From Bacillota bacterium (lineage in GTDB: Bacteria > Bacillota > Dethiobacteria > DTU022): a stretch of 32,836 nt of DNA. Below the pieces are notes generated by a model, which was given only the letters and a program-made list of their open reading frames with translations, had not been told where the DNA came from and did not search any database. Numbering within the stretch: the first letter of the stretch is position 1; the number at the start of each line of letters is the position of its first letter. The position numbers and the translations under genes were made by a program. Positions 1,777 to 24,436 of this stretch are shown in pieces. The stretch covers positions 1 through 32,836 of the forward strand of contig JAABTH010000009.1 of NCBI GenBank assembly GCA_011389985.1, in the 5' to 3' direction.

Positions 1777-3387
1777 ATGGAAGATGGTGCAATGTTTGGC
1801 CATATTTCAGGCTGGATTTATCTTGGATTGATAATATATATAGCTATTGTTGTCGCTATCGGAATTTATTTTTCCCGTGGTATTAAAGAATGTGATGATC
1901 ATGTTGTGGGTGGCAGAGATATTTCTTTTGTCTACCTGGTCGGTTCCACCGCTGCCACCTGGCTTTGTGCCGGGGCTATTCTTGGCGCTGCCGGTTATGC
2001 CTATATGTTCGGTTTCCAGGGAATTATTTATGACCCCTGGGCACCGGCCCTGACCCTTGTATTAAGCGGGGTATTCCTGGTTTATCGTTTACGTCAGGCC
2101 GGTTATACTTCGATTGTCGATTTCTATGATAATCGTTATGGACGTCAGATGAGTGTATTATTTATGATTATTCAGATTATCGGAACCATGTCCTGGCTGG
2201 CCGGCCAGATGGTTGCAGCCGGAGTCCTTGTGCAGGTGACTACCGGTTTTAGTTATGCTATCTCTGTCGTTATCGGCACAATTGTTATTATAGCCGTAAC
2301 ATACAGTGGCGGTCTGAAAGCGCTCTCCAGGCTTGATACTATGAATACTGTATTAATCATAGTCGCTCTTTTAATCCTATTCCCGGCAGTAATCAAGGGC
2401 GTTGGAGGATGGGATTTTTTTGTCAACAATGCCAGGGTCTGGGATAAGTTACCGCCTTTCACATTGTGGCCTGTTTCAGATGCGCGTGGTTTTCTCTACT
2501 ATGTTGGCCTGTTTGGCTGGATTGCCTATATTGCCGCCTGGCTTGGGGTGGGGCTGGGTGATTTAAGCTGCGCGATCCTGATGCAGCGCGCCTTAGCCGC
2601 CAGAACGGCAAAAACAGCTTCCGGTGGTTTTATCACTGCCGGAATTCTCTACCTTATAATTGCCATGATACCGGTTATGATCGGCATTGCCGTTTTCACC
2701 TATGGGTTCAGATTGGCAAGCCCAATTGAGAACGAAAAAGTCTTAATCTGGGCTGCCCAGAATTTTATGCCTGATTGGTATGCTGTCTTTTTCATTGTCA
2801 TGGTAGCCGGGGCGATTATATCAACTGCAGGCGACAGTGTCTTAATCAATTCCACCTTACTCGGACATAATGTCTACCGCTACTTCAGGCCAAAAGCAAC
2901 TACTGTCGATACCCTGAAGGCTGTGCGCGTTGCCATACCGGTAACTGCGATTATCTGTATGATTATAGCTATCGCTTTGCCTTCTTTGTATAAACTGATT
3001 GTATTTGCCGGTTGTATCGGTTTGCCCACGGTGGTGCCGGCCTTTATTGCCGGTCTCTTCTGGAGCAAGGCGAATCTTAAAGGGGCAGTTTCTTCTTTCT
3101 TTGCCGGGGTAGTGACGTGGGCGATCGGTTTTGCATGGGCCCTGCCTTTTACAATTGAATCTAACTGGTATATGGTCGATTTTGAAGTTTGGTACTGGGT
3201 AGACGAGGGTATCTGGGACGCCCTTTTCTTTGCTACTATACCGGCAGTCGTTGTCTGTATAATTACGCTTATAGTAGTCTCGCTGAAAACCCAGAAATCA
3301 GATCCGCCCAAGCCAATGTTAAATGCCCAGGGTGAGAATATGGTAGATAAGCCTATGTTTTTCTGGTCGAAGAAGCAAGAATCTTAA
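1777..3387 (+). CDS. Sodium:solute symporter (SSS) family transporter
   Basis: A 536-residue polytopic membrane protein. An in-frame ATG lies at 1759, but the strong GGAAGGAGGG site at 1761-1770 sits inside that extension and 6 nt before the ATG at 1777, so 1777 is the better start. About 13 hydrophobic segments can be seen. Family signs are the N-terminal helix followed by a VGGRDIS segment (the 'aGR.l' region after TM1), the TAATWLCAGAILGAAGYAY helix, RLRQAGYTSIVDFYDNRYGR before TM4, and the VTYSGGLKALSRLDTMNTVLI stretch corresponding to the family's 'GGl.AV..TD..Q' region. These proteins import a solute using the sodium gradient. The substrate is not decidable here. It follows the Cache-like lipoprotein and probably shares its transcript. 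Confidence 0.9.
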   Translation: MEDGAMFGHISGWIYLGLIIYIAIVVAIGIYFSRGIKECDDHVVGGRDISFVYLVGSTAATWLCAGAILGAAGYAYMFGFQGIIYDPWAPALTLVLSGVFLVYRLRQAGYTSIVDFYDNRYGRQMSVLFMIIQIIGTMSWLAGQMVAAGVLVQVTTGFSYAISVVIGTIVIIAVTYSGGLKALSRLDTMNTVLIIVALLILFPAVIKGVGGWDFFVNNARVWDKLPPFTLWPVSDARGFLYYVGLFGWIAYIAAWLGVGLGDLSCAILMQRALAARTAKTASGGFITAGILYLIIAMIPVMIGIAVFTYGFRLASPIENEKVLIWAAQNFMPDWYAVFFIVMVAGAIISTAGDSVLINSTLLGHNVYRYFRPKATTVDTLKAVRVAIPVTAIICMIIAIALPSLYKLIVFAGCIGLPTVVPAFIAGLFWSKANLKGAVSSFFAGVVTWAIGFAWALPFTIESNWYMVDFEVWYWVDEGIWDALFFATIPAVVVCIITLIVVSLKTQKSDPPKPMLNAQGENMVDKPMFFWSKKQES

Positions 3388-3435
3388 GCAGTGAGTTGGG
3401 TTATTTAATTCTGTTTTAATATGCATGGCTTAATA

Positions 3436-3472
3436 ATAAGGCGCTCGGGCAGTTAAAACCCCGGGCGCTTAT
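3436..3472. terminator. Hairpin between convergent symporter and prenyltransferase genes
   Basis: ATAAG plus CGCTCGGG on the left (3436-3449, one bulged G) pairs with CCCGGGCG-CTTAT on the right (3460-3472), giving a GC-rich stem with a 10-nt loop. It lies midway between the ends of two convergent genes, as expected of a bidirectional terminator. The flanks are AT-rich but lack a strong T-run. Confidence 0.5.
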
Positions 3473-3512
3473 CTTAAATAAGTTGACTGATCTGCCAGCC
3501 CTTAAAATATTT

Positions 3513-4445
3513 TTAAAATATTAAAGTGAGCAGGGCTGCTGCGATCATCGTTATTCCGGTTAATTGGTAGACCTGAATGGTTTTGGCGTTGGCTTCAACC
3601 AAAAGCGGAATGTTATCATAATGCTCACGGGCAACTTTAACCGCTTTAACAGCCGGAGGCAGGCTGATAAAAGGAAGCAGCCAGAGAAAGCTTTTACTGA
3701 AAACAGCTAAAATAAGCAGGAAAAGATAAGCAAGGCCGAAAAGCAAAGCATAGACACTTACTCCTTTTTTTTTGCCCAGACGGACCACACCGTTCATTTT
3801 GCCACCTTTGAGATCTGCTTCGTAATCGGGAAACTGGTTGATCCATAGAACATTGGCAATGATAAAGCCAAGAGGCAGGGAGGCGATAACTACCAGCAGG
3901 CTAATCGTTCCTGTCTGAACCAGGTATGTTCCTGTAGTGATCAAGGGGCCAAAGGTAAAGCCGACTGCGAGTTCTCCAAATCCACGATAAGCAAGTTGGA
4001 AGGGTGGAAGGCTGTAGAAAAGGGCGAAGAAAACACCTGCCAGCCCAAACCAGAATACGGAAAACTCTCTGAAAGCAACAATATAAAGTCCCAGCAGGCA
4101 GCCAGTAAAGATTGTGATTATTCCTATAACCAGGTTTTCTTTAAGAGTTAGTTTGCCGTCAATGATTGTTTTTTTGCCACCGCTGAACGGAGTTCGTTTG
4201 TCGGGGGTAACGAAGCGGTCTACGCCGCTCAAATAGTCAATATATTCGTTTATGGCGTTTTTACCTATTTCTAAAAGATAGACGGCAACTACTCCAACCA
4301 GAAACCAGTACCAGTTGAATTTTGCCGATTGGGCAAAGGCCAGAGCGCCACCGACCGCCATAGGTATAGTTGAAGCGATCCATATTTTCGGGTCGGCAAT
4401 CTGTAAGAAACCGTTCCAAAAGCGCTTTAAATCGCCTTTATTCAT
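3513..4445 (-). CDS. UbiA-family prenyltransferase (MenA-like)
   Basis: A 310-residue integral membrane protein with about eight or nine hydrophobic helices. Both aspartate-rich motifs of the UbiA superfamily are present: N66-x3-D70-x5-D76 in NAINEYIDYLSGVD, and D207-x3-D211 in NQFPDYEADLKGG. These bind Mg2+ and the polyprenyl diphosphate that is transferred to an aromatic or lipid acceptor. The RTPFSGG segment after motif 1 resembles MenA (dihydroxynaphthoate prenyltransferase). No other menaquinone gene is in the window, so the acceptor is uncertain. An upstream ATG at 4490 is possible but lies deep inside the aspartate kinase gene. The ATG at 4445 has ACGGAG about 9 nt before it and overlaps the kinase stop (ATGAATAA), typical of translational coupling. 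Confidence 0.85.
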   Translation of the reverse strand: MNKGDLKRFWNGFLQIADPKIWIASTIPMAVGGALAFAQSAKFNWYWFLVGVVAVYLLEIGKNAINEYIDYLSGVDRFVTPDKRTPFSGGKKTIIDGKLTLKENLVIGIITIFTGCLLGLYIVAFREFSVFWFGLAGVFFALFYSLPPFQLAYRGFGELAVGFTFGPLITTGTYLVQTGTISLLVVIASLPLGFIIANVLWINQFPDYEADLKGGKMNGVVRLGKKKGVSVYALLFGLAYLFLLILAVFSKSFLWLLPFISLPPAVKAVKVAREHYDNIPLLVEANAKTIQVYQLTGITMIAAALLTLIF

Positions 4446-5688
4446 TCTGATTATCTCCGTCATGTTTAGGATCTGTTTGATCAAGACCAAAGGCCTTATG
4501 AACTGCCCTTACTGCCAGTTCACCATATTTTTCTTCAATAACACAGGAAATCCTGTATTCAGAAGTGCTGATCATCTCAATATTGATATTTTCCTCGGAA
4601 AGCGACTTAAACATTCTGGCGGCGACTCCGGGGTTAGTTTTAATGCCGATACCAACAGCAGAAACCTTTACGATATTATTGTCGGCAAGCATTTCCAGGG
4701 CTCCGACTTCTTCAGCTACTTTATTTACCAGGACCCGTGCTTTTTCGAGGTCAGTTGTTGGAATAGTGAAAGTAAAATCGGCAAATCCGTCAATGCTTGC
4801 ATTTTGAATAATCATATCTACATTGATCGATGTCTCTGCCAGTGGTGACAATATTTTGTATGCTATTCCCGGGCGGTCCGGAACACGAATCAGTGAGATT
4901 TTTGAAACGTTTCTTTCCAGGGTAACTCCCTTAATAACCGAGTTTTCCATAACTTCCTCCTCATTAACTATCCAGGTCTGCCTTTCTCCGCCAAAAGATG
5001 ATTTAACTACCAGCGGCACCTGGTACTTCTGGGCTAGTTCTACAGAACGGGCGTGCAGCACTTTAGTACCCAGTCCGGCAAGCTCCAGCATTTCCTGGTA
5101 AGATATTTTTTTTAAATGTCTTGCCTTGGGGCAGATGTTGGGATCGGCCGTATAAACACCGTCAACATCGGTATATATTTCACAGCAATCGGCTTTTAAT
5201 GAAGCAGCAAGAGCTACCGCTGTTGTATCAGATCCGCCGCGCCCCAGGGTGGTAATGTTTCCATTATTGCTGACCCCCTGAAATCCTGCAATGACTGGAA
5301 TTACACCTTCATTGATAGCATCATGCAGAATTTCGGTCTGCAAGTCGACTATACGGGCCTTGGTATGAACTTCGTCGGTAATTAAAGGCAGCTGCAGCCC
5401 AAGGTACGATTTGGACCGATGTCCAAGACTTTCAAGCGTAATAGCCATAAGCGCTGCACAAGACTGTTCGCCTGTTGCGACAAGGGCATCCTGCTCACGC
5501 CCCGGGGGGCTGACCATAACCTGTGACGCCATGTTCAGCAATCTGTCCGTTTCACCGCTCATAGCAGAAACAACTACAGCCACTTTATTACCCTTGCGTT
5601 TGGTATTTACAATACCCATTGCTACTCTTCTGATATGATCAAGAGATGCAACAGAAGTTCCACCGTATTTTTGGACAATTAGAGACAT
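4438..5688 (-). CDS. lysC: Aspartate kinase
   Basis: A 416-residue protein that phosphorylates L-aspartate, the first step to lysine, threonine, methionine and diaminopimelate. The amino acid kinase domain opens with IVQKYGGTSVA (the KxGGTS nucleotide-binding motif). It carries SAMSGETDRL, the GRGGSDTTAVALAASL loop and YTDVDGVYTADP, all hallmark aspartokinase segments. Two C-terminal ACT domains follow (around ISLIRVPDRPGIAYKIL and VSAVGIGIKTNPGVAARMF), the usual site of allosteric control by lysine and/or threonine. A GTG nine bases upstream (5697) could also initiate, but the ATG at 5688 is better spaced from AAAGG and gives the standard family N-terminus (MSLIVQKYGG). It overlaps the prenyltransferase gene by 8 nt. 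Confidence 0.95.
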   Translation of the reverse strand: MSLIVQKYGGTSVASLDHIRRVAMGIVNTKRKGNKVAVVVSAMSGETDRLLNMASQVMVSPPGREQDALVATGEQSCAALMAITLESLGHRSKSYLGLQLPLITDEVHTKARIVDLQTEILHDAINEGVIPVIAGFQGVSNNGNITTLGRGGSDTTAVALAASLKADCCEIYTDVDGVYTADPNICPKARHLKKISYQEMLELAGLGTKVLHARSVELAQKYQVPLVVKSSFGGERQTWIVNEEEVMENSVIKGVTLERNVSKISLIRVPDRPGIAYKILSPLAETSINVDMIIQNASIDGFADFTFTIPTTDLEKARVLVNKVAEEVGALEMLADNNIVKVSAVGIGIKTNPGVAARMFKSLSEENINIEMISTSEYRISCVIEEKYGELAVRAVHKAFGLDQTDPKHDGDNQNE

Positions 5689-5865: not shown

Positions 5866-6996
5866 CTAGAACATTTCCAGAAAAGCTTGCAGCCTGGTTT
5901 TTATTGCTTCTTCCGGCTCAAAACTGTAGTTGTCGTCAATCAGCAGCATGGGCAAACCCTCTTTTTTAAGGTAATCACGCAGATCGGGGTAGTCAAATTT
6001 GTGAGGGTCACAGAATGAAATACAGTAACCTACTATTCCGTCAACATCGTATTCCCGGGCTCTTTCAAGGAGGTAGTCGAAGCGCTTAATCCCGGGGCCG
6101 CGATCTGTGCGGGGGCACTGAAAGTTTACGAAGTAATGTTCAGTTAGTCCATCATAGGGATCGGCAGTTACAGGAATATCTTTTTCCCAGACCCTGAAAC
6201 CGATGCATGTGTCGTCAGCGACAACTGCTCCACCTGCTTCTTCGATTATTTTAAAAAGAGCGGGATCATCGATAATGCTTCCCCAGATCATAATCCGCGG
6301 TTTATTGCCATTTACCGGCCTTCTAGATGCAAACTGAACCTCTTTTTCACTTAAGAGCCGGTTGAATGAGTCAACTGGTAGTGTTCCTCCCGCCAGTAGT
6401 AGTTCAAAAATTTCGCTGCCTTCGAGGCGGGGTGGTTTTTCTTTGCGCTGTTTGAGTAACCGTCTTATAATGTCACGATTTTTATTATATGAAATAATTT
6501 CATTACTGAGTTTTTGATCCGGTACATCCTGGCCGGTAAATTTTTCAAGGCTCTCTCTGAAAAAACCCAGTTCGCGTTTGTAAAAGCGCTGAGCCCAGGG
6601 CGTTAACTGGTGGGGAACATTAAAAAGATAAGAATAAGGCAGAGGGTGATAGTAGGTCCAGATCCCATATAGCCTTTGAACCATATCACAACTATGTGAA
6701 ATTACCAACCCATCAAGGAAATCATATTTACCTTCTACTGCCCTGGCCAGAATATTACGCACATATGTACAGCCGTAGGGTTCCGAATAAGCATCGGCAG
6801 ATGAAGTGTCTTTCCCGGGTTTTCCTGTGATTCGGTAAGGTATTGCTCCGGCAGCGCTGATGATTTCAGGTGGGGCAAAGCAGCATATATATCCGATAAC
6901 CGGTTTACCGGTTTTCGTTTTAATGCGGCGTATTTCATCTTCATTTAATTCTGTAGAGCCATTTACGTTATTGGCAGGCTGATCATTAACTGTCAT
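5866..6996 (-). CDS. 2-hydroxyacyl-CoA dehydratase / benzoyl-CoA reductase-type subunit (HgdB-like)
   Basis: A 376-residue protein of the 2-hydroxyacyl-CoA dehydratase superfamily. These cytoplasmic Fe-S enzymes use an ATP-energised electron to make ketyl radicals from hydroxyacyl-CoA, or to reduce aromatic acyl-CoA. Family marks are GYICCFAPPEIISAAGAIP (the 'GY.C...P.Eli.AaG' motif; Cys38/39), GCTYVR with Cys76, SHSCDMVQRLY with Cys103, and late GYCISFCDPHKFDYP, which is close to benzoyl-CoA reductase-type subunits. It ends with IKTRLQAFLE, the same string found near the end of the adjacent gene. The ATG at 6996 overlaps the upstream stop by 11 nt and is preceded by GGAGGT, so the two are co-translated. 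The ASKHA activator and CoA-transferase that usually accompany these enzymes are absent here, so the substrate is unknown. Confidence 0.8.
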   Translation of the reverse strand: MTVNDQPANNVNGSTELNEDEIRRIKTKTGKPVIGYICCFAPPEIISAAGAIPYRITGKPGKDTSSADAYSEPYGCTYVRNILARAVEGKYDFLDGLVISHSCDMVQRLYGIWTYYHPLPYSYLFNVPHQLTPWAQRFYKRELGFFRESLEKFTGQDVPDQKLSNEIISYNKNRDIIRRLLKQRKEKPPRLEGSEIFELLLAGGTLPVDSFNRLLSEKEVQFASRRPVNGNKPRIMIWGSIIDDPALFKIIEEAGGAVVADDTCIGFRVWEKDIPVTADPYDGLTEHYFVNFQCPRTDRGPGIKRFDYLLERAREYDVDGIVGYCISFCDPHKFDYPDLRDYLKKEGLPMLLIDDNYSFEPEEAIKTRLQAFLEMF

Positions 6997-8332
6997 TGAT
7001 CTTACCTCCTTCTTTTGCCCTGTCTACTGTTTCAAGAAATGCTTGAAGTCTTGTTTTTATCTGGGCATCCGACCAGAGCCGAGGATCGGCCATGTCGCTT
7101 TCAAATACCAGTGAAGGCACACCTGCTTTGGCCAACCGGTTCTTGGTATGAATCTCGCCAAAAGATACTGCCCGGCATGATCTTGTTAAATGCATAATTG
7201 CCCCGTTCAGGCTGAAATCATCAACAAGCTCATCAAGCAGACTGCTGCCGACGAAACCGCCAAAAACAGCTGGATTGCATAACTCGGGCATCGCTTCAGA
7301 TCCATAATCGTGCATTTTAACTGCTCTTTGCCATGTTCGCCTGACAATTGCCTCTAAAGGGTCTGATAAATCGACATCAAAGAAATCGCCTACATTATAG
7401 GTGGATTCATAGGCAAAAACTGCCCCAAATGATTCAAGGTAATTAAATATCCCCATGTTAAACCATGGTGGCAGGCCGAACCATATAAAGCGATATTTTT
7501 CCTCTTCAACAATACCGACTCCACGTTCAACCCTGTCTTTGACTTCTTCATACATCTCCCGGTAAAAGTCGACTGCTTCCTGGTCACCTACCAGGTACAT
7601 CTGGGGGATGATCGCATGGAAATAATCTGTTGAACCCATTGGCGTTGGTACTGCCTTACGCAGGGCAAGAGTATCGCGCCAGTAACCCAGCGCCTCATGC
7701 GATAAAGATAGAATATCTCTAAGCATGTTCAAATCAAGCTTTTTGCCTGTCTGCTTTTCGAGGAATTCAATCTGACCGGCAAGGTCTTCTCTTAAGAGGG
7801 TCAGGTAATGTTCCTCGATGCGTGGATTGTGCGGGTCTATATCCCATGGCGGAGCCAGGGGATCACTGCTGTAAACGGGCACATTAAAAAATCGGGTGGC
7901 TACCGACTGAAACCATTTCCAGCGTGGTTCGCAGATAAACCCGGAGCCGAGTAACATTGCCGGTGTGCCCATACCGCCTGGCAGTGGAGACTCTTCGGGT
8001 GCTTCTCCGGTTTCTTTAAACAACTTGCAATAACCCATGGTATTGGTAACATATGAACAAAGTTCAGGTGAATAGCCATCGCCTTCGGCAACTTCGATAA
8101 ATTTTGGGGCGACCAATCTGCTGGCGCACATTGTGCCGAAATTTTCAGGCCACTCAAAAAGCAGGTCAAATGCTTTAAGCAGTTCGGGCGGAACCCCTAC
8201 CATACACCAGGCCAGCGGTTCGTTACTGAAACGCCTTTCCATCATTCGCATAAAAAAGCGCGGCAACATATCTTTCATTTTACGGGTGGTTTCCAGATGG
8301 CGGATAGCCCGGCTCATTTCACTGTGGGACAT
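6986..8332 (-). CDS. 2-hydroxyacyl-CoA dehydratase family protein, larger subunit
   Basis: A 448-residue partner of the gene at 5866-6996. The reading frame stays open to 8548, but the ATG at 8332 has an excellent GGTAGGAGG site just upstream. The extra 72 residues look non-coding and run into the divergent promoter region. Fold-level matches to the superfamily include the C-terminal stretch SCRAVSFGEI... followed by AGVPSLVFESDMADPRLW and then IKTRLQAFLE. This parallels the 'Cr......lp.L.le.D..D.R......qi.tRi.aFlE' ending of dehydratase and benzoyl-CoA reductase subunits. Several cysteines (MCAS, PELCSY, GYCKLF, ELCNP, SCRA) could ligate a cluster. It is probably the heterodimer partner or paralogue of the downstream subunit. 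The reaction cannot be assigned from sequence. Confidence 0.75.
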   Translation of the reverse strand: MSHSEMSRAIRHLETTRKMKDMLPRFFMRMMERRFSNEPLAWCMVGVPPELLKAFDLLFEWPENFGTMCASRLVAPKFIEVAEGDGYSPELCSYVTNTMGYCKLFKETGEAPEESPLPGGMGTPAMLLGSGFICEPRWKWFQSVATRFFNVPVYSSDPLAPPWDIDPHNPRIEEHYLTLLREDLAGQIEFLEKQTGKKLDLNMLRDILSLSHEALGYWRDTLALRKAVPTPMGSTDYFHAIIPQMYLVGDQEAVDFYREMYEEVKDRVERGVGIVEEEKYRFIWFGLPPWFNMGIFNYLESFGAVFAYESTYNVGDFFDVDLSDPLEAIVRRTWQRAVKMHDYGSEAMPELCNPAVFGGFVGSSLLDELVDDFSLNGAIMHLTRSCRAVSFGEIHTKNRLAKAGVPSLVFESDMADPRLWSDAQIKTRLQAFLETVDRAKEGGKINDS

Positions 8333-8486
8333 TATTTTTCCTCCTACCTCATTACAGGAATACCCGGTGGATAGAAATTGTAATGATGCTCTCAATAATT
8401 CTTTAAAGTTTAACTCATATCCTGCCGCAGGCTTAAAATGATTAATGATTTTCTTAATGAAAAAGTGAATTGGCGTCTTCATTGCG

Positions 8487-8515
8487 TTGACAGTCTCTAA
8501 TCTACATGCTACCTT
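8487..8515 (+). promoter_or_regulatory. Predicted promoter of hisG
   Basis: A consensus -35 TTGACA (8487-8492), 17-bp spacer, and -10 TACCTT (8510-8515) with an extended TGC just before it. The implied start is near 8522, leaving about 28 nt before the ATG at 8550. The -10 is weak but the extended element supports the call. Confidence 0.5.
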
Positions 8516-8549
8516 AATACTACTTGTAAAAATAAAAGGAGCGAGCAAA

Positions 8550-15613: not shown

Positions 15614-15679
15614 TGATAAGAGATACTGAACTACTTGGACAAGAAAAAAAGTTCTGTTATTTTTTGGGAGGTTAGGTTG

Positions 15680-16216
15680 ATGATAAAAATACGTGGTGGG
15701 CCGCTTAAGGTTTTGGATGGTCTAGCAGATCGTATTTCCGCTGCTGTTGGTGCAGTTGCTTTCTCCCAGTTTCCCCAGTTTTATGGTCAGTATATGCAGC
15801 GTCTCGGCGGCCACTTAGATGAGGCCCGTAGAATGCTCGATCAATACATAAAGGCCGCTGCAGCATTAAATTTAACCCTTGAAGAATATATCCACGAACA
15901 CCTTGAATCAGGGAGCTCTGTCTTTATATCATCAGGTGAGATTATGCAAAGCCTGGTTGAACGCTATGAAGCTCTGGAAAAGGCATATATGGCGTTGAAC
16001 GATGCCAATATATACAACAGGTGGTACGTATTTTTAAGAGAAGTTGACTGGTCTATTGCAGCTGGTACCTGGCAGAATTTCGTACCCGGTGTGCCCACAA
16101 CCACTGAAGGACTAGTCTATGCTTTAACCGGTCTTTTACTGGGCTGGGCAATCTACAGTTTCTTCAAATATGTTGTTTCCATCCCTTTCAGTTCAACCGC
16201 GGATCCCAAAGCTTGA
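15680..16216 (+). CDS. DUF2937-like protein with a C-terminal membrane helix
   Basis: A 178-residue protein of unknown function. The frame is open to 15635, but GGGAGGTTAGGTTG sits directly before the ATG at 15680, which is the better start. The order of features resembles the DUF2937 family: a short hydrophobic N-terminal segment (GAVAFSQFPQFYGQYMQRL), HLDEARRMLDQY, a charged helical middle with HLESGSSVF and LVERYEALEKAY, then WQNFVPGVPTTTEGLVYAL leading into one transmembrane helix (LTGLLLGWAIYSFFKYVV). In that family the equivalent end is 'y.VPl...gl..g..gLLL.w'. The assignment is from recalled family pattern. That family is mostly reported from Gram-negatives, so this would be an unusual host. 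It precedes the ymfF/ymfH pair by 80 nt on the same strand. Confidence 0.55.
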   Translation: MIKIRGGPLKVLDGLADRISAAVGAVAFSQFPQFYGQYMQRLGGHLDEARRMLDQYIKAAAALNLTLEEYIHEHLESGSSVFISSGEIMQSLVERYEALEKAYMALNDANIYNRWYVFLREVDWSIAAGTWQNFVPGVPTTTEGLVYALTGLLLGWAIYSFFKYVVSIPFSSTADPKA

Positions 16217-16296: not shown

Positions 16297-17598
16297 TTGT
16301 CAGAAGCTTACTCAATTCATTATTTGCCAAACGGAATAAGATTACTTTTATTAGCCACCAAAAAGTTCAAAACAATTTCACTGGGGCTGTTTGTCCACCA
16401 GGATCTAAAATCAGAGACGGTAGCTTTAAATGCCCTGCTTCCCTCGGTTCTTGAACAGGGTTGCCGAAAATATCCCGATTACCTTACCTTACAGCGAAAG
16501 CTGGAAAATCTATATGGTTCTGAGCTGTCTACAGATATCCTGAAAAGTGGGGAAAGACATATTATTGCATTTGGCCTGGAATCAGCTCATGACAGATTTC
16601 TCGGTGAAAATGGCAGGTTATTGAAAGATACTGTTTCTGTACTCAGTGCTGTTGTCGGCGATCCGCTGCTAAACGATGGGGCGTTTCATAAAGGCTACGT
16701 TAATCAGGAAAAAAACCAACTGGTTAAAGACATAAAAGCTTTGCTTAATGATAAAGCAGCTTATGCGATGGAACGCTGTTTGTCTGAAATGTGTGCAGAT
16801 GAACAATTTGGGATCTATAAGCTGGGTCGAATTGAAAATTATAATAATATTGATGCCGATATGCTTTACCGACATTACAGGGAACTTCTTTCAGAAAGCC
16901 CAATCGATCTTTATGTGATTGGCGATCTCGATGAGGCGGAAGTTTTAAATACTGTAACCGAGGCCTTCACTTTTCCCCGCAATAAAAGTCAGGTTAAACT
17001 TTCACCAGTTGATATTAACCGTTCCGTCAATGGCGTTCGCACTATAGAAGAGGAAATGACCGTTAACCAGGCTAAGATGGTGCTTGGTTATCGTACATAT
17101 ACCGGATTTGACGATCTTTTACACTGTCCGCTGCTTGTCTACAGCGGAGTGCTTGGTGGTTTTCCCCATTCAAAGCTGTTTATGAAAGTACGTGAGGAGG
17201 CCAGCCTGGCCTATTATATCCACACCCGGCTGGAAAAACATAAAGGGCTCATGGTTATTGCTGCCGGCATTAATGCCGCTGACTATGAGAAAGCCAGGGA
17301 GATTATTAACTGCCAGCTTGAAGATATGATTGAAGGCCGCATCAGCACGGCTGAGCTTGAAAATACCAAGCGAGGACTGGTTAACCAGCTGCTTTCCCGT
17401 CAGGACAGTCCCACTCAGCTAATCTCCTTTCACTTGGACGGAGTAGTCGGTAGTAAAATTTACACCTTCGAGGAGCTAATTGCCGGAATAGAGGCCGTGG
17501 AAATAAATGAAATACAGGAGGTAGCCGGGCGAATCATGCTCGATACTGCTTACCTGCTGAAGCCCCGGGGAAGTGAGGTTATCAATCATGGAAATTAA
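16297..17598 (+). CDS. ymfF: M16-family peptidase-like protein YmfF (inactive-type partner)
   Basis: A 433-residue M16 (pitrilysin-like) fold protein. The TTG at 16297 is the start, set by AAGGAGGT about 8 nt upstream. The N-terminal LPNGIRLLLLAT strand is typical. The zinc motif HxxEH is missing: the equivalent helix reads LLPSVLEQGCRKYP. It is therefore predicted to be non-catalytic. The C-terminal half has GGFPHSKLFMKVREEASLAYYI, the conserved substrate-cradling segment of the second M16 domain. In Bacillota such a protein pairs with an active M16 member (YmfH). The pair has been linked to 5-aminopentanol modification of elongation factor P. Neither efp nor ymfI is in the window. Confidence 0.85.
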   Translation: MSEAYSIHYLPNGIRLLLLATKKFKTISLGLFVHQDLKSETVALNALLPSVLEQGCRKYPDYLTLQRKLENLYGSELSTDILKSGERHIIAFGLESAHDRFLGENGRLLKDTVSVLSAVVGDPLLNDGAFHKGYVNQEKNQLVKDIKALLNDKAAYAMERCLSEMCADEQFGIYKLGRIENYNNIDADMLYRHYRELLSESPIDLYVIGDLDEAEVLNTVTEAFTFPRNKSQVKLSPVDINRSVNGVRTIEEEMTVNQAKMVLGYRTYTGFDDLLHCPLLVYSGVLGGFPHSKLFMKVREEASLAYYIHTRLEKHKGLMVIAAGINAADYEKAREIINCQLEDMIEGRISTAELENTKRGLVNQLLSRQDSPTQLISFHLDGVVGSKIYTFEELIAGIEAVEINEIQEVAGRIMLDTAYLLKPRGSEVINHGN

Positions 17599-18889
17599 TT
17601 ACAGGCTGATCGAAAACAAAGCTCTGCAGGAATCTCTTTACCATTACCGGATCAATCCGGGAATGGATCTTTACATTCTGCCCAGGGCAGATTACCGGAA
17701 AAAATATGCAATATTTTCAACCCGTTTTGGCTCTATTGATAACTCTTTCAGGGTAGAGCCCGAAGAGGAAATAACAACTTTACCAGATGGTGTCGCTCAC
17801 TTTCTTGAGCACAAACTATTTGAAGATGAGCAGGGCAACGTGTTCGACCGCTTTGCTGCTCTTGGGGCTTCGGCGAATGCTTTCACATCTTTTACCCAGA
17901 CTACTTATCTTTTTTCCTGCACGGCTAATTTTGAACAGAACCTGACGGAACTGCTTAATTTTGTTCAGGAACCGTATTTTACTGAAGAAACAGTGAGAAA
18001 AGAACAGGGAATCATTGGGCAGGAAATAAAAATGTATGAAGATCATCCTCATTGGCGGGTTTTCTTTAATTTACTCGAATCACTATATCGGGAACACCCT
18101 GTCCGAAATGATATTGCCGGTACTGTTGAAAGCATATCAAAGATTACTCCAGATCTGCTTTACCGCTGTTATAACACCTTTTATCATCCCACCAATATGG
18201 CAGTATTTATTGTCGGAGATCTTGATCCTGCCATTGTTGCAGCGCAGGTTGAAGCTAATTTTTCTGCCCGGGGTTATAAACATATGGGAGCCATCGTGCG
18301 CCGTTATCCTGAGGAGCCCAAAGAGATTATGCAAGAAAAAGCAGTTCAGAAGTTAGTAGTTTCAGAGCCTGTATTTTACCTGGGTTTCAAAGATATTGTT
18401 GTAGATAAGCTTAGCGGGCGCGATGTAATGCACCGGGAAATACTGATGGAACTGGTGCTTGATACTTTATTTGGAACAAGCGAAAAACTATACAATGATC
18501 TATACAAGGCTGATTTAATTGATGAAGGGTTTGGGTTTGAATATGCAGCTGAAAGCACATATGGATATACGATGATTGGGGGGGAAACGAAAGACCCGGA
18601 TCAACTATATGATCGGATCATGTCAGAGATAAAAAATGCTCAGAAAAACGGCATTAGCGAGGAGCAGTTTGAACGCCATCGCCGAAAGATATTGGGTAGT
18701 TATATCAGGAAATTTGATTCACTTGAATTTATAGCGAATAACTTTTTGGCTTATAAGTTCAGGGATACCAATCTGTTCGAGCTTCCCGGTGTGCTTAATG
18801 AAGTAAGTAGAGAGGAAGCGCTTGCCCTGATCGAAGAAAACCTGAATTCTGAGAGACATGCCGTATCTCTCGTTTTACCGTCAGAGTAA
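17588..18889 (+). CDS. ymfH: M16-family zinc metallopeptidase YmfH
   Basis: A 433-residue M16 peptidase with the inverted zinc motif intact: GVAHFLEHKLF gives His71, Glu74 and His75. Further glutamates suited to complete the site lie in EQGIIGQEIKMYEDHPHW about 75 residues on. The family segments SANAFTSFTQTTYLF and YHPTNMAVFIVGDLDP are present, and LFGTSEKLYNDLYKADLID marks the second domain. The start chosen is ATG 17588, which overlaps the ymfF stop by 11 nt, with GTGAGG upstream; a GTG at 17573 is also in frame. The overlap indicates coupled translation of an active/inactive M16 heterodimer. Confidence 0.88.
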   Translation: MEINYRLIENKALQESLYHYRINPGMDLYILPRADYRKKYAIFSTRFGSIDNSFRVEPEEEITTLPDGVAHFLEHKLFEDEQGNVFDRFAALGASANAFTSFTQTTYLFSCTANFEQNLTELLNFVQEPYFTEETVRKEQGIIGQEIKMYEDHPHWRVFFNLLESLYREHPVRNDIAGTVESISKITPDLLYRCYNTFYHPTNMAVFIVGDLDPAIVAAQVEANFSARGYKHMGAIVRRYPEEPKEIMQEKAVQKLVVSEPVFYLGFKDIVVDKLSGRDVMHREILMELVLDTLFGTSEKLYNDLYKADLIDEGFGFEYAAESTYGYTMIGGETKDPDQLYDRIMSEIKNAQKNGISEEQFERHRRKILGSYIRKFDSLEFIANNFLAYKFRDTNLFELPGVLNEVSREEALALIEENLNSERHAVSLVLPSE

Positions 18890-19405: not shown

Positions 19406-19434
19406 TTGATTTTTCCCGGCGGGTGCGGTAAAAT
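19406..19434 (+). promoter_or_regulatory. Promoter of the aminotransferase-reductase fusion gene
   Basis: -35 TTGATT (19406-19411), exactly 17-bp spacer, -10 TAAAAT (19429-19434). The predicted start is near 19441, about 44 nt before the ATG. It lies just beyond the VanZ-like stop (19387), so the fusion gene has its own transcript. Confidence 0.7.
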
Positions 19435-19446
19435 AATCCCATTGGC

Positions 19447-19464
19447 GTGCACACATATGTGCAC
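19447..19464 (+). promoter_or_regulatory. Candidate operator: double GTGCAC palindrome
   Basis: Two copies of the palindrome GTGCAC (19447-19452 and 19459-19464) flank ACATAT and enclose the 10-bp palindrome CACATATGTG. The element sits at about +6 to +24 of the predicted transcript, a typical repressor roadblock position. It could alternatively form a small 5'-UTR hairpin. Confidence 0.5.
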
Positions 19465-19484
19465 ATAATTTTGGGAGGTTTACT

Positions 19485-22112
19485 ATGAACAACTTCACCC
19501 GTTATGTAAATCCGCATCTGGGCGAGATGCTTGAAAGCATCAAGCTTGATCAAAAATATGTACGTGGCGAAGGTTGTTATCTCTTTGATGACAATGAAAA
19601 CCGCTACCTTGACTGTATTGCTGCTTACGGGGCTTTACCCTTTGGTCATAATCCACCGATGATATGGGAAGCCATTAACAATTTTCAAAATTCAATGGAG
19701 CCGAGCTTTATTCAGCCTTCAGCGCTTGACGCTGCCGGTGAACTGGCACGCCTTTTGGCTGAGCTATCTCCGGAAGGTCTTGAATTCGTTACATTTGCAA
19801 ACAGTGGCGCAGAGGCTATTGAGGCAGCTATAAAGCTCTGCCGTTCTTCAACCGGACGCCCTGGCATTCTTGCCACCGAAAACAGTTTTCATGGAAAAAC
19901 ATTTGGCGCATTATCTGCAACGGGTAACCTCGGTTATCAGAAGCCTTTTAATGCTCCGGCGGAACATTTTAGTCATATACCCTATGGTGATACTCACGCC
20001 CTCGAGAAAGAACTGAAGGCAAAGCCTAAACATTATGCCGCATTCCTGGTCGAACCGATTCAGGGAGAAGGCGGTATTATCGAGCCGCCTGCAGGTTACC
20101 TCTCCAGGGTTAGGGAGATATGCAATGAACATGGCGTCCTTCTTGTCTTCGATGAAGTTCAGACCGGACTGGGCCGGACAGGAACTCTATTTGCCTGCGA
20201 GGAAGAAAATGTAGCTCCCGATGTTATGGTTTTAGCCAAAGCTCTTGGCGGTGGCATTATGCCTATCGGTGCATGTATCAGTAGTGAAGCTGCTTATAAT
20301 GAAGATTTTGGTCTCAAGCATTCATCTACTTTTGCCGGTAATTCGCTTGCATGCCGCGTTGGTTTGAAAGTGCTCGATCTGCTCTCTGAAGATAATAAGA
20401 GCTTGTTAAAAAGTGTTCGTGAAAAAGGCAAGGTTTTAAAAAAAGGCCTGAAAGAGTTACAGATGAGATATCCCGCCTTGATCAGAAACATTCGCGGCAG
20501 GGGCCTTATGCTCGGTATTGAGTTCTATATGAACCGAGAAAATTTTCCCGGCTCTCTCTTAGGTATTATGGCCGAGCAGGAGCTGTTAACCCCGGCCATT
20601 TCATCCTATCTGCTCAATGTTGAAAAAGTGCGGGTTGCCCCGACTCTGAACGGAAATGCTGTGATCAGAATTGAGCCGCCGCTTATTATCAATGACGAGC
20701 AATGCCGTCAGGCACTGACAGGAATTGAAGCCATGCTTGAAGTATTGAGTGAAGGCAGCACTGCCCGGTTTCTCGCTTACCTGGTGCGCTCTGATTCTGA
20801 AGTTAAAAATGGACGTTACGTTCCTTTTGTTCCCTATCCGGCGCCAAATTATATCCCGGATGGTAATAAAGAAGAAGGCCGTTTTGCTTTTCTCGTCCAT
20901 GCTCTTGATCTTAAAAGCTATCCCCAGTTTGATAACAGCCTGCTTTCTTTTAGCCAGGATGAACTTGCCGATCTGACAAGCCGTTTTAATGGTATGGTTG
21001 AGCCATTTGTAGCCGGAAAGACAAAAATAAAAGCAATATCAGGCCGTGAAGCTTACGGTGAATTTATTGCTCTGTCACGCACCACTGATGATTTTATTGA
21101 ACTTCCGCGCAGCCAGGCATTAGCCGAGCTAAAAGCAGCTGTCGCCATGGCCAGGGAACGCGGTGCTAAAATTGTCGGCCTGGGAGCTTTTACTGCCGTG
21201 GCTTCAATGGGAGGTCTATACTTGAAAAATGAAGGGATACCGATCACTACCGGTAACAGCTATACAGTTGTATCTGCTGTAGAGGCGGTTAATACCGCTA
21301 CTGAAAGACTGCAGATCGACCGTTCTGAAACCACTGCTGCTATTGTCGGTGCTGCCGGGTCAATTGGCCGGGGTATATCTCTTTTACTTTCTGAAACAGT
21401 ACCCCGCCTTATACTAATCGGTAATCCAAACAACCAGACTTCGAGCGAAAGGTTGCATATTGTTGCCGCTGAAATTTACCGTTACCAGTCGGCGCTGCTT
21501 CGCCAGGGACGTCCTTTGAAAGATGGCAGCATGGCTCATCTTCTGGCCGACTGTAGTCAATTGCCGGATCCGGAAGCACCGATGGATAAATTTGAAGAAT
21601 TTGTCGATGGCAAAGGCAGGGAGCTTGGCTTGATCGAATTTTCTACTGATATAGATGCTGTATTAGCCAGGGCCGACATTGTGATCAGCGCTACAAGCGC
21701 TACTGATAAAGTAATTCATGCCGGCAACTTAAAAACGGGAGCAATTGTCTGTGACATTTCCCGACCGGCCAATGTCAGTGAAGAGGTTGATGCCGCCCGT
21801 CCCGACGTTTTGGTTATAGACGGTGGAGTGGTCGAAGTTCCCGGCCATCCTTCGCTGGGTTGGGATTTCGGTTTTGAGGAAGGTCTTGCTTATGCCTGTA
21901 TGGCAGAGACAATGCTGCTAGCCCTTGAGCAACATTATAAGCATTACAGTCTCGGATCATCCGGCGTAAACCTTGAGACAATATTACAGACACGCTACTG
22001 GGCTGAAGAGCATGGTTTTAAACTGGCAAACTTCCGCAGTTTCAACCGTCCCTTGAGTGAAGATAGCTGGCAGAGACTTTTAAAAACACGCCAGGAACTG
22101 GTCGCCCGCTGA
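19485..22112 (+). CDS. Class-III aminotransferase fused to acyl-ACP reductase-like (AAR-like) domain
   Basis: An 875-residue two-domain protein. Residues 1 to about 430 are a complete fold-type I PLP aminotransferase (ornithine/acetylornithine/GABA group): NSGAEAIEAAIK at 107-117, SFHGKTFGALS, VFDEVQTGLGRTG with Asp223, and the PLP lysine Lys252 in LAKALGGG. Residues about 460-860 resemble cyanobacterial long-chain acyl-[ACP] reductase: GLGAFTAV (565-572), TTGNSYTVVSAVEAV, the Rossmann loop VGAAGSIGRG (621-630), IDGGVVEVPG, and YACMAETMLLALE. Cys805 in the last segment aligns with the acyl-thioester cysteine of the Synechococcus enzyme (Cys294). The inferred activity is reduction of an acyl thioester to an aldehyde, then transamination to an amine. 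Substrate chain length is unknown. GGGAGGT lies 6 nt before the ATG. Confidence 0.85.
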   Translation: MNNFTRYVNPHLGEMLESIKLDQKYVRGEGCYLFDDNENRYLDCIAAYGALPFGHNPPMIWEAINNFQNSMEPSFIQPSALDAAGELARLLAELSPEGLEFVTFANSGAEAIEAAIKLCRSSTGRPGILATENSFHGKTFGALSATGNLGYQKPFNAPAEHFSHIPYGDTHALEKELKAKPKHYAAFLVEPIQGEGGIIEPPAGYLSRVREICNEHGVLLVFDEVQTGLGRTGTLFACEEENVAPDVMVLAKALGGGIMPIGACISSEAAYNEDFGLKHSSTFAGNSLACRVGLKVLDLLSEDNKSLLKSVREKGKVLKKGLKELQMRYPALIRNIRGRGLMLGIEFYMNRENFPGSLLGIMAEQELLTPAISSYLLNVEKVRVAPTLNGNAVIRIEPPLIINDEQCRQALTGIEAMLEVLSEGSTARFLAYLVRSDSEVKNGRYVPFVPYPAPNYIPDGNKEEGRFAFLVHALDLKSYPQFDNSLLSFSQDELADLTSRFNGMVEPFVAGKTKIKAISGREAYGEFIALSRTTDDFIELPRSQALAELKAAVAMARERGAKIVGLGAFTAVASMGGLYLKNEGIPITTGNSYTVVSAVEAVNTATERLQIDRSETTAAIVGAAGSIGRGISLLLSETVPRLILIGNPNNQTSSERLHIVAAEIYRYQSALLRQGRPLKDGSMAHLLADCSQLPDPEAPMDKFEEFVDGKGRELGLIEFSTDIDAVLARADIVISATSATDKVIHAGNLKTGAIVCDISRPANVSEEVDAARPDVLVIDGGVVEVPGHPSLGWDFGFEEGLAYACMAETMLLALEQHYKHYSLGSSGVNLETILQTRYWAEEHGFKLANFRSFNRPLSEDSWQRLLKTRQELVAR

Positions 22113-22193: not shown

Positions 22194-22239
22194 TATAGTG
22201 ACAACACTAATCCTAACAGGTTCAGAAAGGGTGGTTGGC

Positions 22240-23712
22240 GTGGAAGGAAAAAACGGGCGCGGAAACAGGGGGCAGAATAAGGAGTTTGTCAAGGAGATCA
22301 CCCCGAAAGCGGTCGATTATTCTCAGTGGTATATCGATGTAATATTAAAAACAAAAATGATGGACTATTCACCGGTAAAGGGTTTTATGGCTATTCGCCC
22401 TGCCGGTTATGCCATTTGGGAAAAGATTCAGGAACAGATGGATCGCCGTTTTAAAGATACGGGGCACCAGAATGCTTATTTCCCGCTGCTAATTCCGCAG
22501 AGTCTGCTTCAGAAAGAGGCAGAGCACGTTGAAGGATTCGCTCCTGAAGTGGCCTGGGTCACCAAGGGCGGTAATGAAGTGCTCACCGAACCGCTCCTTG
22601 TGCGTCCCACTTCCGAGTCAATTATATGTGATTTTTACTCTCGCTGGGTTCAATCATGGCGTGATCTACCCATATTAATCAACCAGTGGTGTAATGTGGT
22701 CCGCTGGGAAAAATCAACCAAACCCTTTCTTCGTACCTCCGAGTTTCTATGGCAGGAAGGCCACACATGCCATCGCACGGAAGAGGAAGCTGAAGCAGAA
22801 ACTCTGCAGATGCTTAATGTCTATAAAGATTGCATCGAAAAAGAAATGGCCATACCGGTAGTTGCCGGCAGAAAAACAGAAAGAGAAAAGTTTGCCGGCG
22901 CCCTGCGCACTTATTCAGTTGAAGCTTTGATGAGTGATGGACGCGCCCTGCAGGCCGGAACATCTCATAATCTTGGACAACATTTTGCAAAAGTATTTGA
23001 TATCACTTTCCTCGATCAGGACGACCAGCTTAAGCATGTCTGGCAGACATCCTGGGGAGCTTCCACTCGTCTGATCGGTGCCCTAATCATGGTTCACGGA
23101 GATGATCGTGGTCTGGTTCTACCACCGCGCCTGGCACCGATCCAGGTTGTCATCGTTCCCATTCTTACCAAAAAAGATCGCGAACGTGTTCTTGCGTCAG
23201 TTGGCGAACTTGAAGGGCAGTTAAAAAATGATATCAGGGTGCAACTTGACGACAGGGAAGAATATTCCCCCGGCTGGAAATTTAACGATTGGGAAATGCG
23301 CGGCGTTCCCCTGCGTATAGAAATTGGCCCCAAAGATCTGGACAAAGGCCACGTAGTGCTGGTTCGCCGTGATACTGGTGAGAAAGAGTTTGTCTCGCGC
23401 GAAGAACTGGCAGATAAACTGCCGCTGCTGCTTGAACAGATTCAGAATGACATGTACAAAAAAGCAGTTGATTTTCGTGAAGCGAATACCCGCAGAGGTT
23501 CGGATTACGAAGAATTTAAAAAGATTATGGATAAGGAACGCGGTTATTTTGTCGCCTCCTGGTGCGGAAATTCAGCTTGCGAAGAAAAAATTAAAAATGA
23601 CACCAGGGCAACCATTCGTTGTCTCCCTTTTGATATGGAACCTGAAGATAAAAATTGTTTTGCCTGCGGTGAGAAAGCGGCGGCATTGGCCTATTTTGCC
23701 CGGGCCTATTGA
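22240..23712 (+). CDS. proS: Prolyl-tRNA synthetase, archaeal/eukaryotic type
   Basis: A 490-residue class-II aminoacyl-tRNA synthetase charging tRNA-Pro. It is the short ProS type lacking the bacterial editing insertion. KEFVKEITPKAVDYSQWYIDVI is the standard N-terminus of that type. Motif 2 lies in CNVVRWEKSTKPFLRTSEFLW and motif 3 in the GASTRLIGALIMVHGDDRGL region. The C-terminal zinc-binding extension has four cysteines (SWCGNSACEE and NCFACGEKA) and ends in tyrosine, as in this type. The frame is open to GTG 22198, but AAAGGGTGG about 5 nt before the GTG at 22240 favours that start; GTG 22231 is an alternative. It is followed 67 nt later by the folate enzyme gene. Confidence 0.93.
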   Translation: MEGKNGRGNRGQNKEFVKEITPKAVDYSQWYIDVILKTKMMDYSPVKGFMAIRPAGYAIWEKIQEQMDRRFKDTGHQNAYFPLLIPQSLLQKEAEHVEGFAPEVAWVTKGGNEVLTEPLLVRPTSESIICDFYSRWVQSWRDLPILINQWCNVVRWEKSTKPFLRTSEFLWQEGHTCHRTEEEAEAETLQMLNVYKDCIEKEMAIPVVAGRKTEREKFAGALRTYSVEALMSDGRALQAGTSHNLGQHFAKVFDITFLDQDDQLKHVWQTSWGASTRLIGALIMVHGDDRGLVLPPRLAPIQVVIVPILTKKDRERVLASVGELEGQLKNDIRVQLDDREEYSPGWKFNDWEMRGVPLRIEIGPKDLDKGHVVLVRRDTGEKEFVSREELADKLPLLLEQIQNDMYKKAVDFREANTRRGSDYEEFKKIMDKERGYFVASWCGNSACEEKIKNDTRATIRCLPFDMEPEDKNCFACGEKAAALAYFARAY

Positions 23713-23779: not shown

Positions 23780-24370
23780 ATGGAAAAGAAGGAACTACGT
23801 AAAAAAATTATAGATTTAAGAGATAGGCTTACGCCACCAGAAATTTATGAGAAAAGCTCACTGATTGCAGAAAAACTTTTTAACCTTCCTGCCTATGAAT
23901 ATGCCGGGGCAGTTATGTTTTTTATTTCATTCGGTAGTGAGGTTGACACAAGAGATATGGTTGAAGAAACGATTAAAAGGGGCAAGCTGGCGCTTGCCCC
24001 AAAAGCTTTACCAAAAACCCGCGAGCTGATCTCATCTAAGGTGCTTAACTGGAGCGAAGATCTTGCCCCGGGCGCTTATGGCATCCCTGAACCGTCAGAT
24101 GATATGCTTCGTCCCTGTGACCCCGGTATTATTGACCTGTTAATAGTACCCGGCGTGGCATTTGATCTAAAAGGCAACCGCCTCGGTTACGGTGGAGGCT
24201 ACTACGATCGCTTTTTCCCCCTCTTAAAACCGGGAACACCTCTTGTTGCCCTTGTCTATGATTTTCAGATTCAACCGGATATTCCGGTTGAATCATGGGA
24301 TTGTCCTGTGGATATTATAATAACCGAAAAGCGAATCATCAAGGCAAAAGATTTAAATATATCCAGTTAG
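23780..24370 (+). CDS. 5-formyltetrahydrofolate cyclo-ligase
   Basis: A 196-residue enzyme converting 5-formyl-THF plus ATP to 5,10-methenyl-THF, which returns a stored folate to the one-carbon pool. Family features are the N-terminal KKELRKKIIDLRDRLT basic helix, FFISFGSEVDTRDMV, LLIVPGVAFDLKGNRLGYGG with the GYGGGYYDRF ATP-binding loop, and the terminal PVESWDCPVDIIITEKRII. The length is normal. The ATG at 23780 has CCGGGAGA upstream. It is probably co-transcribed with proS, ending at the terminator at 24412. Confidence 0.92.
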   Translation: MEKKELRKKIIDLRDRLTPPEIYEKSSLIAEKLFNLPAYEYAGAVMFFISFGSEVDTRDMVEETIKRGKLALAPKALPKTRELISSKVLNWSEDLAPGAYGIPEPSDDMLRPCDPGIIDLLIVPGVAFDLKGNRLGYGGGYYDRFFPLLKPGTPLVALVYDFQIQPDIPVESWDCPVDIIITEKRIIKAKDLNISS

Positions 24371-24411: not shown

Positions 24412-24436
24412 AGCGTCAAAACAAATCTTTGACGCT
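24412..24436. terminator. Bidirectional terminator between folate ligase and TetR genes
   Basis: AGCGTCAAA (24412-24420) pairs with TTTGACGCT (24428-24436) around a 7-nt loop, followed by ATTTCTTT on plus and TTACGTTT on minus. It overlaps the TetR stop codon (24435-24437) and serves both convergent genes. Confidence 0.75.

Follow-up and report, generated by a model that had tools for sequence, protein, structure and literature searches.

A fused class-III aminotransferase and thioester reductase in anaerobic Bacillota, a probable acyl-thioester-to-primary-amine enzyme outside pigment clusters

In this work we have analysed a stretch of 32,836 nucleotides (the window) from a member of the Bacillota (Dethiobacteria; contig JAABTH010000009.1, assembly GCA_011389985.1), in which an aminotransferase (TA) and a thioester reductase (TR) are joined in a single protein of 875 amino acids. 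We consider it probable that this protein is a TamH-type enzyme which converts acyl thioesters into primary amines, that it is controlled by the helix-turn-helix protein F9, and that it represents, in fused form, a TA and TR pair of the Bacillota which lies outside any pigment cluster. Many related anaerobic Bacillota carry TA and TR as two separate conserved genes. The fused TA-TR architecture itself has been described before, in bacterial pigment pathways. An earlier sequence-only reading of this DNA had proposed an acyl-to-amine enzyme and stated that no pathway with such a fusion was described; the latter statement was mistaken, as TamH (PMC9594044) and PigE (PMC8341465) have both been described, while the acyl-to-amine function is still the best supported one. 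The products which that reading had suggested, an alkylamine lipid or a signal molecule, are speculative.

The fused protein and its known homologues

The gene is an uninterrupted frame which starts with ATG and is preceded by the ribosome-binding site GGGAGG at 19473-19478 (Table 1). The presence of an aminotransferase and an AAR-like reductase in this one frame of 875 codons, as claimed from the letters alone, was confirmed by Pfam, phmmer and profile searches and by conservation, and all the motifs quoted in that claim were found where they had been placed. The nearest solved structures of the TA domain are the TA of PigE and the putrescine aminotransferase YgjG, and its Lys252 sits within AKALGGG. 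The TR domain contains a GxxGxxG motif (G622-G628) and matches both the TR of PigE (phmmer E=1.1e-23, profile 5.6e-35) and the structures of the acyl-ACP reductase AAR (phmmer E=1.9e-14, profile 1.2e-24). The phmmer alignment places Cys805 opposite the catalytic Cys294 of 6jzq, at a position where chain 6jzz has Ser, and this agrees with the proposal that Cys805 occupies the position of the AAR acyl-enzyme cysteine. Lys252 and Cys805 are both invariant in the 68 fused proteins, the window protein and its relatives (Table 1). The C-terminal half might instead have belonged to an unrelated dehydrogenase family lacking the thioester cysteine, but it groups with AAR and PigE and has retained that cysteine. 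When the whole fusion was used as the Foldseek query, only transaminases were found among the 50 matches listed. Could the fused frame have arisen from an assembly join or a chimeric contig? This is ruled out, because the gene is kept at the same locus across the family, and because the TA-TR order is found in 76 of the 78 loci with a usable frame, among the best 80 loci of the genome collection.

Table 1. Features of the window around the fused gene
Feature	Position	Strand	Evidence or remark
Two M16-peptidase-family genes, TA-locus markers	16297-17598, 17573-18889	+	Pfam; synteny
Sigma-70-type promoter: TTGATT (19406-19411), 17-bp spacer, TAAAAT (19429-19434)	19406..19434	+	Sequence; pattern kept in 27 aligned fused loci
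Dyad GTGCACACATATGTGCAC, candidate operator	19447..19464	.	GTGCAC-N6-GTGCAC between -10 and start codon
Fused TA-TR gene, 875 aa	19485..22112	+	Frame conserved in family
Class-III PLP aminotransferase (TA) domain, residues 24-417	19554..20735	+	Pfam PF00202 (Aminotran_3), E=1.9e-98
Lys252 codon, PLP-binding lysine	20238..20240	+	Invariant in 68/68 fused proteins
AAR-type thioester reductase (TR) domain, residues about 466-875	20880..22109	+	Profile matches: PigE N-terminal half, AAR
Cys805 codon, putative acyl-enzyme cysteine	21897..21899	+	SeAAR C294 column; invariant in 68/68 fused proteins
proS, right-hand locus marker	22198-23712	+	Pfam; synteny
5-FTHF cyclo-ligase, right-hand locus marker	23780-24370	+	Pfam; synteny

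The window protein therefore has what is expected of an enzyme of the TamH/PigE type, namely a class-III TA with its PLP lysine, followed by an AAR-type TR with GxxGxxG and Cys. PtTamH from the tambjamine YP1 pathway of Pseudoalteromonas tunicata is likewise a TA-TR protein with GxxGxxG and a catalytic Cys, and together with the ACP-loading TamA it converts a C12 acid in vitro through the aldehyde to the C12 amine, using NADH and L-Glu, whereas C12-CoA is not accepted (PMC9594044). The order of the N-terminal class-III TA and the C-terminal AAR-type TR is the same in both proteins; this comparison follows the published description of PtTamH, and the pigment-pathway enzyme sampled in the TA tree is PigE. 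The two genes differ in their surroundings, as TamH is encoded in a pigment cluster with the ANL-ACP enzyme TamA, whereas the window gene has a housekeeping context and an F9-type operator. PigE of Serratia (NF053554, PDB 4ppm), which acts in prodigiosin synthesis, reduces the thioester and then transaminates the aldehyde (PMC8341465). It contains both domains and, among the sequences of solved structures, is the best match of either half of the window protein, although its domain order is reversed, TR-TA. The TA of PigE clusters with the fused Bacillota TAs in the TA tree (support 0.998). The cyanobacterial long-chain AAR (6jzq/6jzy, TIGR04058) is a homologue of the TR, with the catalytic Cys294 and the nucleotide-binding loop aligned, but it is a single-domain protein which hands its aldehyde to an O2-dependent oxygenase. 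YgjG (PDB 4uox) is another class-III TA and has the N-terminal VNP motif in common with the window protein; however, it is monofunctional and forms its own clade in the TA tree. The window protein scored 558.4 bits with the PigE equivalog NF053554 (cut-off 850), and its TR half scored 80.8 bits with the AAR equivalog TIGR04058 (cut-off 449.7), with C805 as the equivalent of Cys294. Because it falls below both equivalog cut-offs, it should be named neither PigE nor AAR. The putrescine aminotransferase models TIGR03372 and NF008570 gave 301 and 338.2 bits, below their cut-offs of 658.65 and 612.

Genomic setting and the separate genes of relatives

Within the window family, the fusion was found in 28 of 36 genomes, several of the remaining ones being incomplete. 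Carriers of the fusion include soda-lake Syntrophomonadaceae, Dethiobacter-type bacteria, Halanaerobiales, Lutispora (for example the culturable L. saccharofermentans, L106), Symbiobacteriaceae and Limnochordia, and the records of the best 80 loci are titled Bacillota/Firmicutes or subgroups of these, save two bins titled Desulfovibrio and Atribacteria. The fused gene of the family is flanked by the two M16 genes and by proS and the 5-FTHF cyclo-ligase gene, with a VanZ-like gene additionally present in the window. Neither an acyl-activating enzyme nor an ACP nor an amine-using gene was seen adjoining the fused gene, and no bipyrrole or TamA-like genes were seen in its neighbourhood, which is thus not that of a tam or pig cluster; the housekeeping context rules out a pigment or natural-product cluster. 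At a few loci (L122, L133 and L147) a DapB-like gene comes after the fused gene, and a link to lysine/DAP was dropped because so few loci have this neighbour. Beside the M16 genes the window also encodes a DUF2937 protein (15635-16216, E=9e-42), and further away, at 5866-8548 on the minus strand, there are two adjacent frames which by eye resemble 2-hydroxyacyl-CoA dehydratase-type subunits.

The split form of the pair occupies two loci. The standalone TR, about 365 aa long, is found between F7 and greA within the conserved gene order dusB - F9 - F7 - TR - greA - lysS. The separate TA of about 465 aa adjoins both M16 genes in several genomes, often near proS, where the window has its fused gene. 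Each of the two is closest to the corresponding half of PigE. The separate TA is sister to the fused TAs (support of the joint clade 1.0 in the tree without PigE), and when PigE is added, the fused TAs and PigE form one clade. One genome, G158, has both genes together, with the TA (3133-4533 of locus L213) directly followed by the TR (4571-5653). Of the 299 genomes of the phylum sample, 97 contain the separate TA, and 93 of these also have the standalone TR, a count uncorrected for phylogeny; among the 202 genomes without a separate TA, the standalone TR occurs in 55, so that it is present in 148 genomes in total. Other genomes of the sample carry the fusion. In about 50 genomes a standalone TR occurs although neither a separate nor a fused TA was recognised, and 21 of these have a third type of TA. 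This third type (about 420 aa; for example in G139, G104, G170 and G203) shares about 49% identity with the separate TA, and it occurs mostly in genomes which have the TR and no separate TA, the TR being present in 22 of 22. Another arrangement was seen in G360 (L211, 1-15001), where F7 is followed by a fused TA-TR gene and then by a further separate-type TA.

What has happened to the separate reductase in genomes which carry the fusion? In the genome of the window, the TR locus has kept dusB, F9, F7, greA and lysS, and there is no reductase in the 262 bp between F7 and greA. Among the genomes of the class sample which have kept a standalone TR, this TR lacks the catalytic Cys in 7 of 8 with the fusion compared with 2 of 22 without a detected fusion (Fisher p=1.3e-4, uncorrected for phylogeny), and those TRs in the fusion genomes have usually lost other conserved residues as well. 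In another family, the Cys is replaced by Trp in G098 and by Gly in G275, both of which have the fusion; Trp is also present in G176 and G204, which belong to the genus of G098 and whose fusion status was not checked directly. G078 has the fusion and a standalone TR which still contains Cys. Loss of the Cys is not exclusive to fusion genomes, because decayed TRs also occur without a detected fusion (G112, G335, G202, G094, G200, G315 and G249). Decayed paralogues without the Cys (L068:4821-5885, L046, L065, L166 and L222-L224) remain as open frames in place and are possibly non-enzymatic. The simplest reading of these sequence patterns is that the fusion took over the role of both separate genes. 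Such a replacement would link the TA and TR activities to each other even if TamH were left out of account.

The promoter dyad, F9 and F7

The dyad GTGCACACATATGTGCAC is the sole exact GTGCAC-N6-GTGCAC in the 1.9-Mb genome of the window, and with one mismatch allowed there is a single further site, inside a thiolase-like frame. Dyads with at most one mismatch were found at most 120 bp from the fused gene at 50 fused loci and only five times elsewhere in 984 kb; two of these five lie upstream of the F9-F7 part, at loci where the fused gene follows F7. With at most two mismatches, the dyad precedes F9-F7(-TR) at 36 of the 38 loci which contain F9 and at none of the 12 loci which do not (p=7.5e-10), and in the genome of the window GATCACAAAACTGTGCAC is located upstream of F9 (L150, F9 at 6470). 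It also precedes the adjacent TA-TR pair of G158, and no GTGCAC-type element was seen upstream of the separate TAs at 13 loci (L198-L210). F9 is a small protein whose weak match to HTH_31 is below the cut-off. A TetR gene at 24435 is not a favoured candidate for the regulator, because it is F9 with which the dyad co-occurs. We infer from this association that F9 is the cognate regulator of the dyad, and most likely an autorepressor because the dyad lies just downstream of the -10 box. F9, F7 and TR, fused or not, would then form one regulon even where they are unlinked, as in the genome of the window. The dyad and F9 make up a candidate two-operon regulon with an unrecognised family of regulator.

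F7, a protein of about 300 aa, is present in 225 of the 299 phylum genomes (in the genome of the window at L150:7032-7928, contig C5) and lies upstream of TR in many loci. It has no match in Pfam or NCBIfam and no convincing sequence match in the PDB. Its AlphaFold model (pLDDT 90) loosely resembles AAR (TM 0.52), and, judged by this model, F7 may act with TR as a partner which has a diverged AAR fold. PMC9425974 mentions a family of unknown function "annotated as quinate 5-dehydrogenase", of which F7 is a candidate member only. F7, TR and TA are found mostly in spore formers because most of the sampled genomes are spore formers, 256 of the 299 having spoIVA. A sporulation-specific role is unlikely, since the genome of the window (96.8% complete) and G007 (99%) lack spoIVA and have nevertheless kept the fusion. 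Other members of the family and most of the phylum sample have spoIVA, and it may be that sporulation has been lost in these two.

Proposed reaction, alternatives and significance

The acyl-to-amine function is the best supported because it has been demonstrated for the two-domain PtTamH and because PigE carries out the equivalent reactions. By analogy, Cys805 of the C-terminal domain would accept the acyl group from an acyl-ACP (or acyl-CoA), and reduction of the thioester with NAD(P)H would yield an aldehyde. This aldehyde would be handed to the N-terminal class-III transaminase, which, with PLP/PMP and with glutamate or another amino donor, would turn it into a primary amine. What the sequences show are the domains, their catalytic residues, the pairing and exchange of split and fused genes, the common operator and its association with F9. 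The direction of the reaction, the acyl substrate and its chain length, the preferred cofactor and the amine product are all predictions of this scheme. So is the control of the gene: F9, encoded with F7 at another locus, probably represses it at GTGCAC-N6-GTGCAC.

Could the enzyme work in the opposite direction, the TA deaminating a primary amine and the TR oxidizing the aldehyde to an acyl thioester, in the catabolism or detoxification of amines? In principle each half-reaction can run backwards, the TA scores almost as well against YgjG as against PigE (290 vs 295 bits), and a dedicated operator would also suit an inducible catabolic enzyme. We nevertheless regard this as unlikely, as the characterised homologues AAR, PigE and TamH all reduce thioesters, two separate YgjG-like transaminases are encoded in the same genome (L002 and L003), and no linked transporter or catabolic genes were seen. 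The affinity of the TA to putrescine/ornithine-type transaminases, and the DapB-like gene downstream at a few loci, might also point to a substrate other than a fatty acyl group, such as a thioester which is short or polar, or a different activated carboxylate, leading to, for example, a diamine or amino alcohol precursor. The chance of this seems small to us, given that the TR profile matches are the long-chain acyl-ACP reductase and the medium-chain PigE and that the DapB link is confined to those few loci.

It is also conceivable that the reductase is the essential activity, producing an aldehyde or alcohol together with F7, and that the transaminase merely scavenges surplus aldehyde. The standalone TR with F7 indeed occurs in more genomes than the recognised separate TA does (148 vs 97), but the TA nearly always occurs with TR (93/97, and 22/22 for the third type of TA) and the fusion seems to have replaced both genes, so that we give this explanation a low probability. 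Finally, the architecture is the same as that of TamH, as it would be if this were a tambjamine or prodiginine gene like those of Pseudoalteromonas or Serratia; with no bipyrrole or TamA-like neighbours seen, and with a conserved context of M16, proS and 5-FTHF cyclo-ligase genes, this is hardly credible. A TamH-type conversion of acyl thioesters to primary amines, controlled by F9, is therefore the reading which we prefer.

The setting appears to be new: a TA and TR pair, separate or fused, outside pigment clusters and with a predicted switch. Our literature searches on alkylamines, on AAR with a transaminase in clostridia and on TamH-like fusions in Firmicutes returned nothing relevant beyond TamH, and in the literature found, pigment pathways are the only setting described for the conversion of fatty acids to amines by an AAR-type reductase and a transaminase. 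Whether the module of TR and TA, split or fused, with F7 and with F9 acting on GTGCAC-N6-GTGCAC is an undescribed conserved set of many anaerobic Bacillota is, in our judgement, an evenly balanced question. If it is, these bacteria would have a regulated pool of a long-chain amine or amine-derived lipid which has so far gone unrecognised. The module makes the question of whether anaerobic Bacillota produce primary alkylamines, and why, directly testable in culturable relatives. It would also place TamH, PigE and the separate Bacillota genes in a single evolutionary frame and add many natural enzymes for amine biocatalysis.
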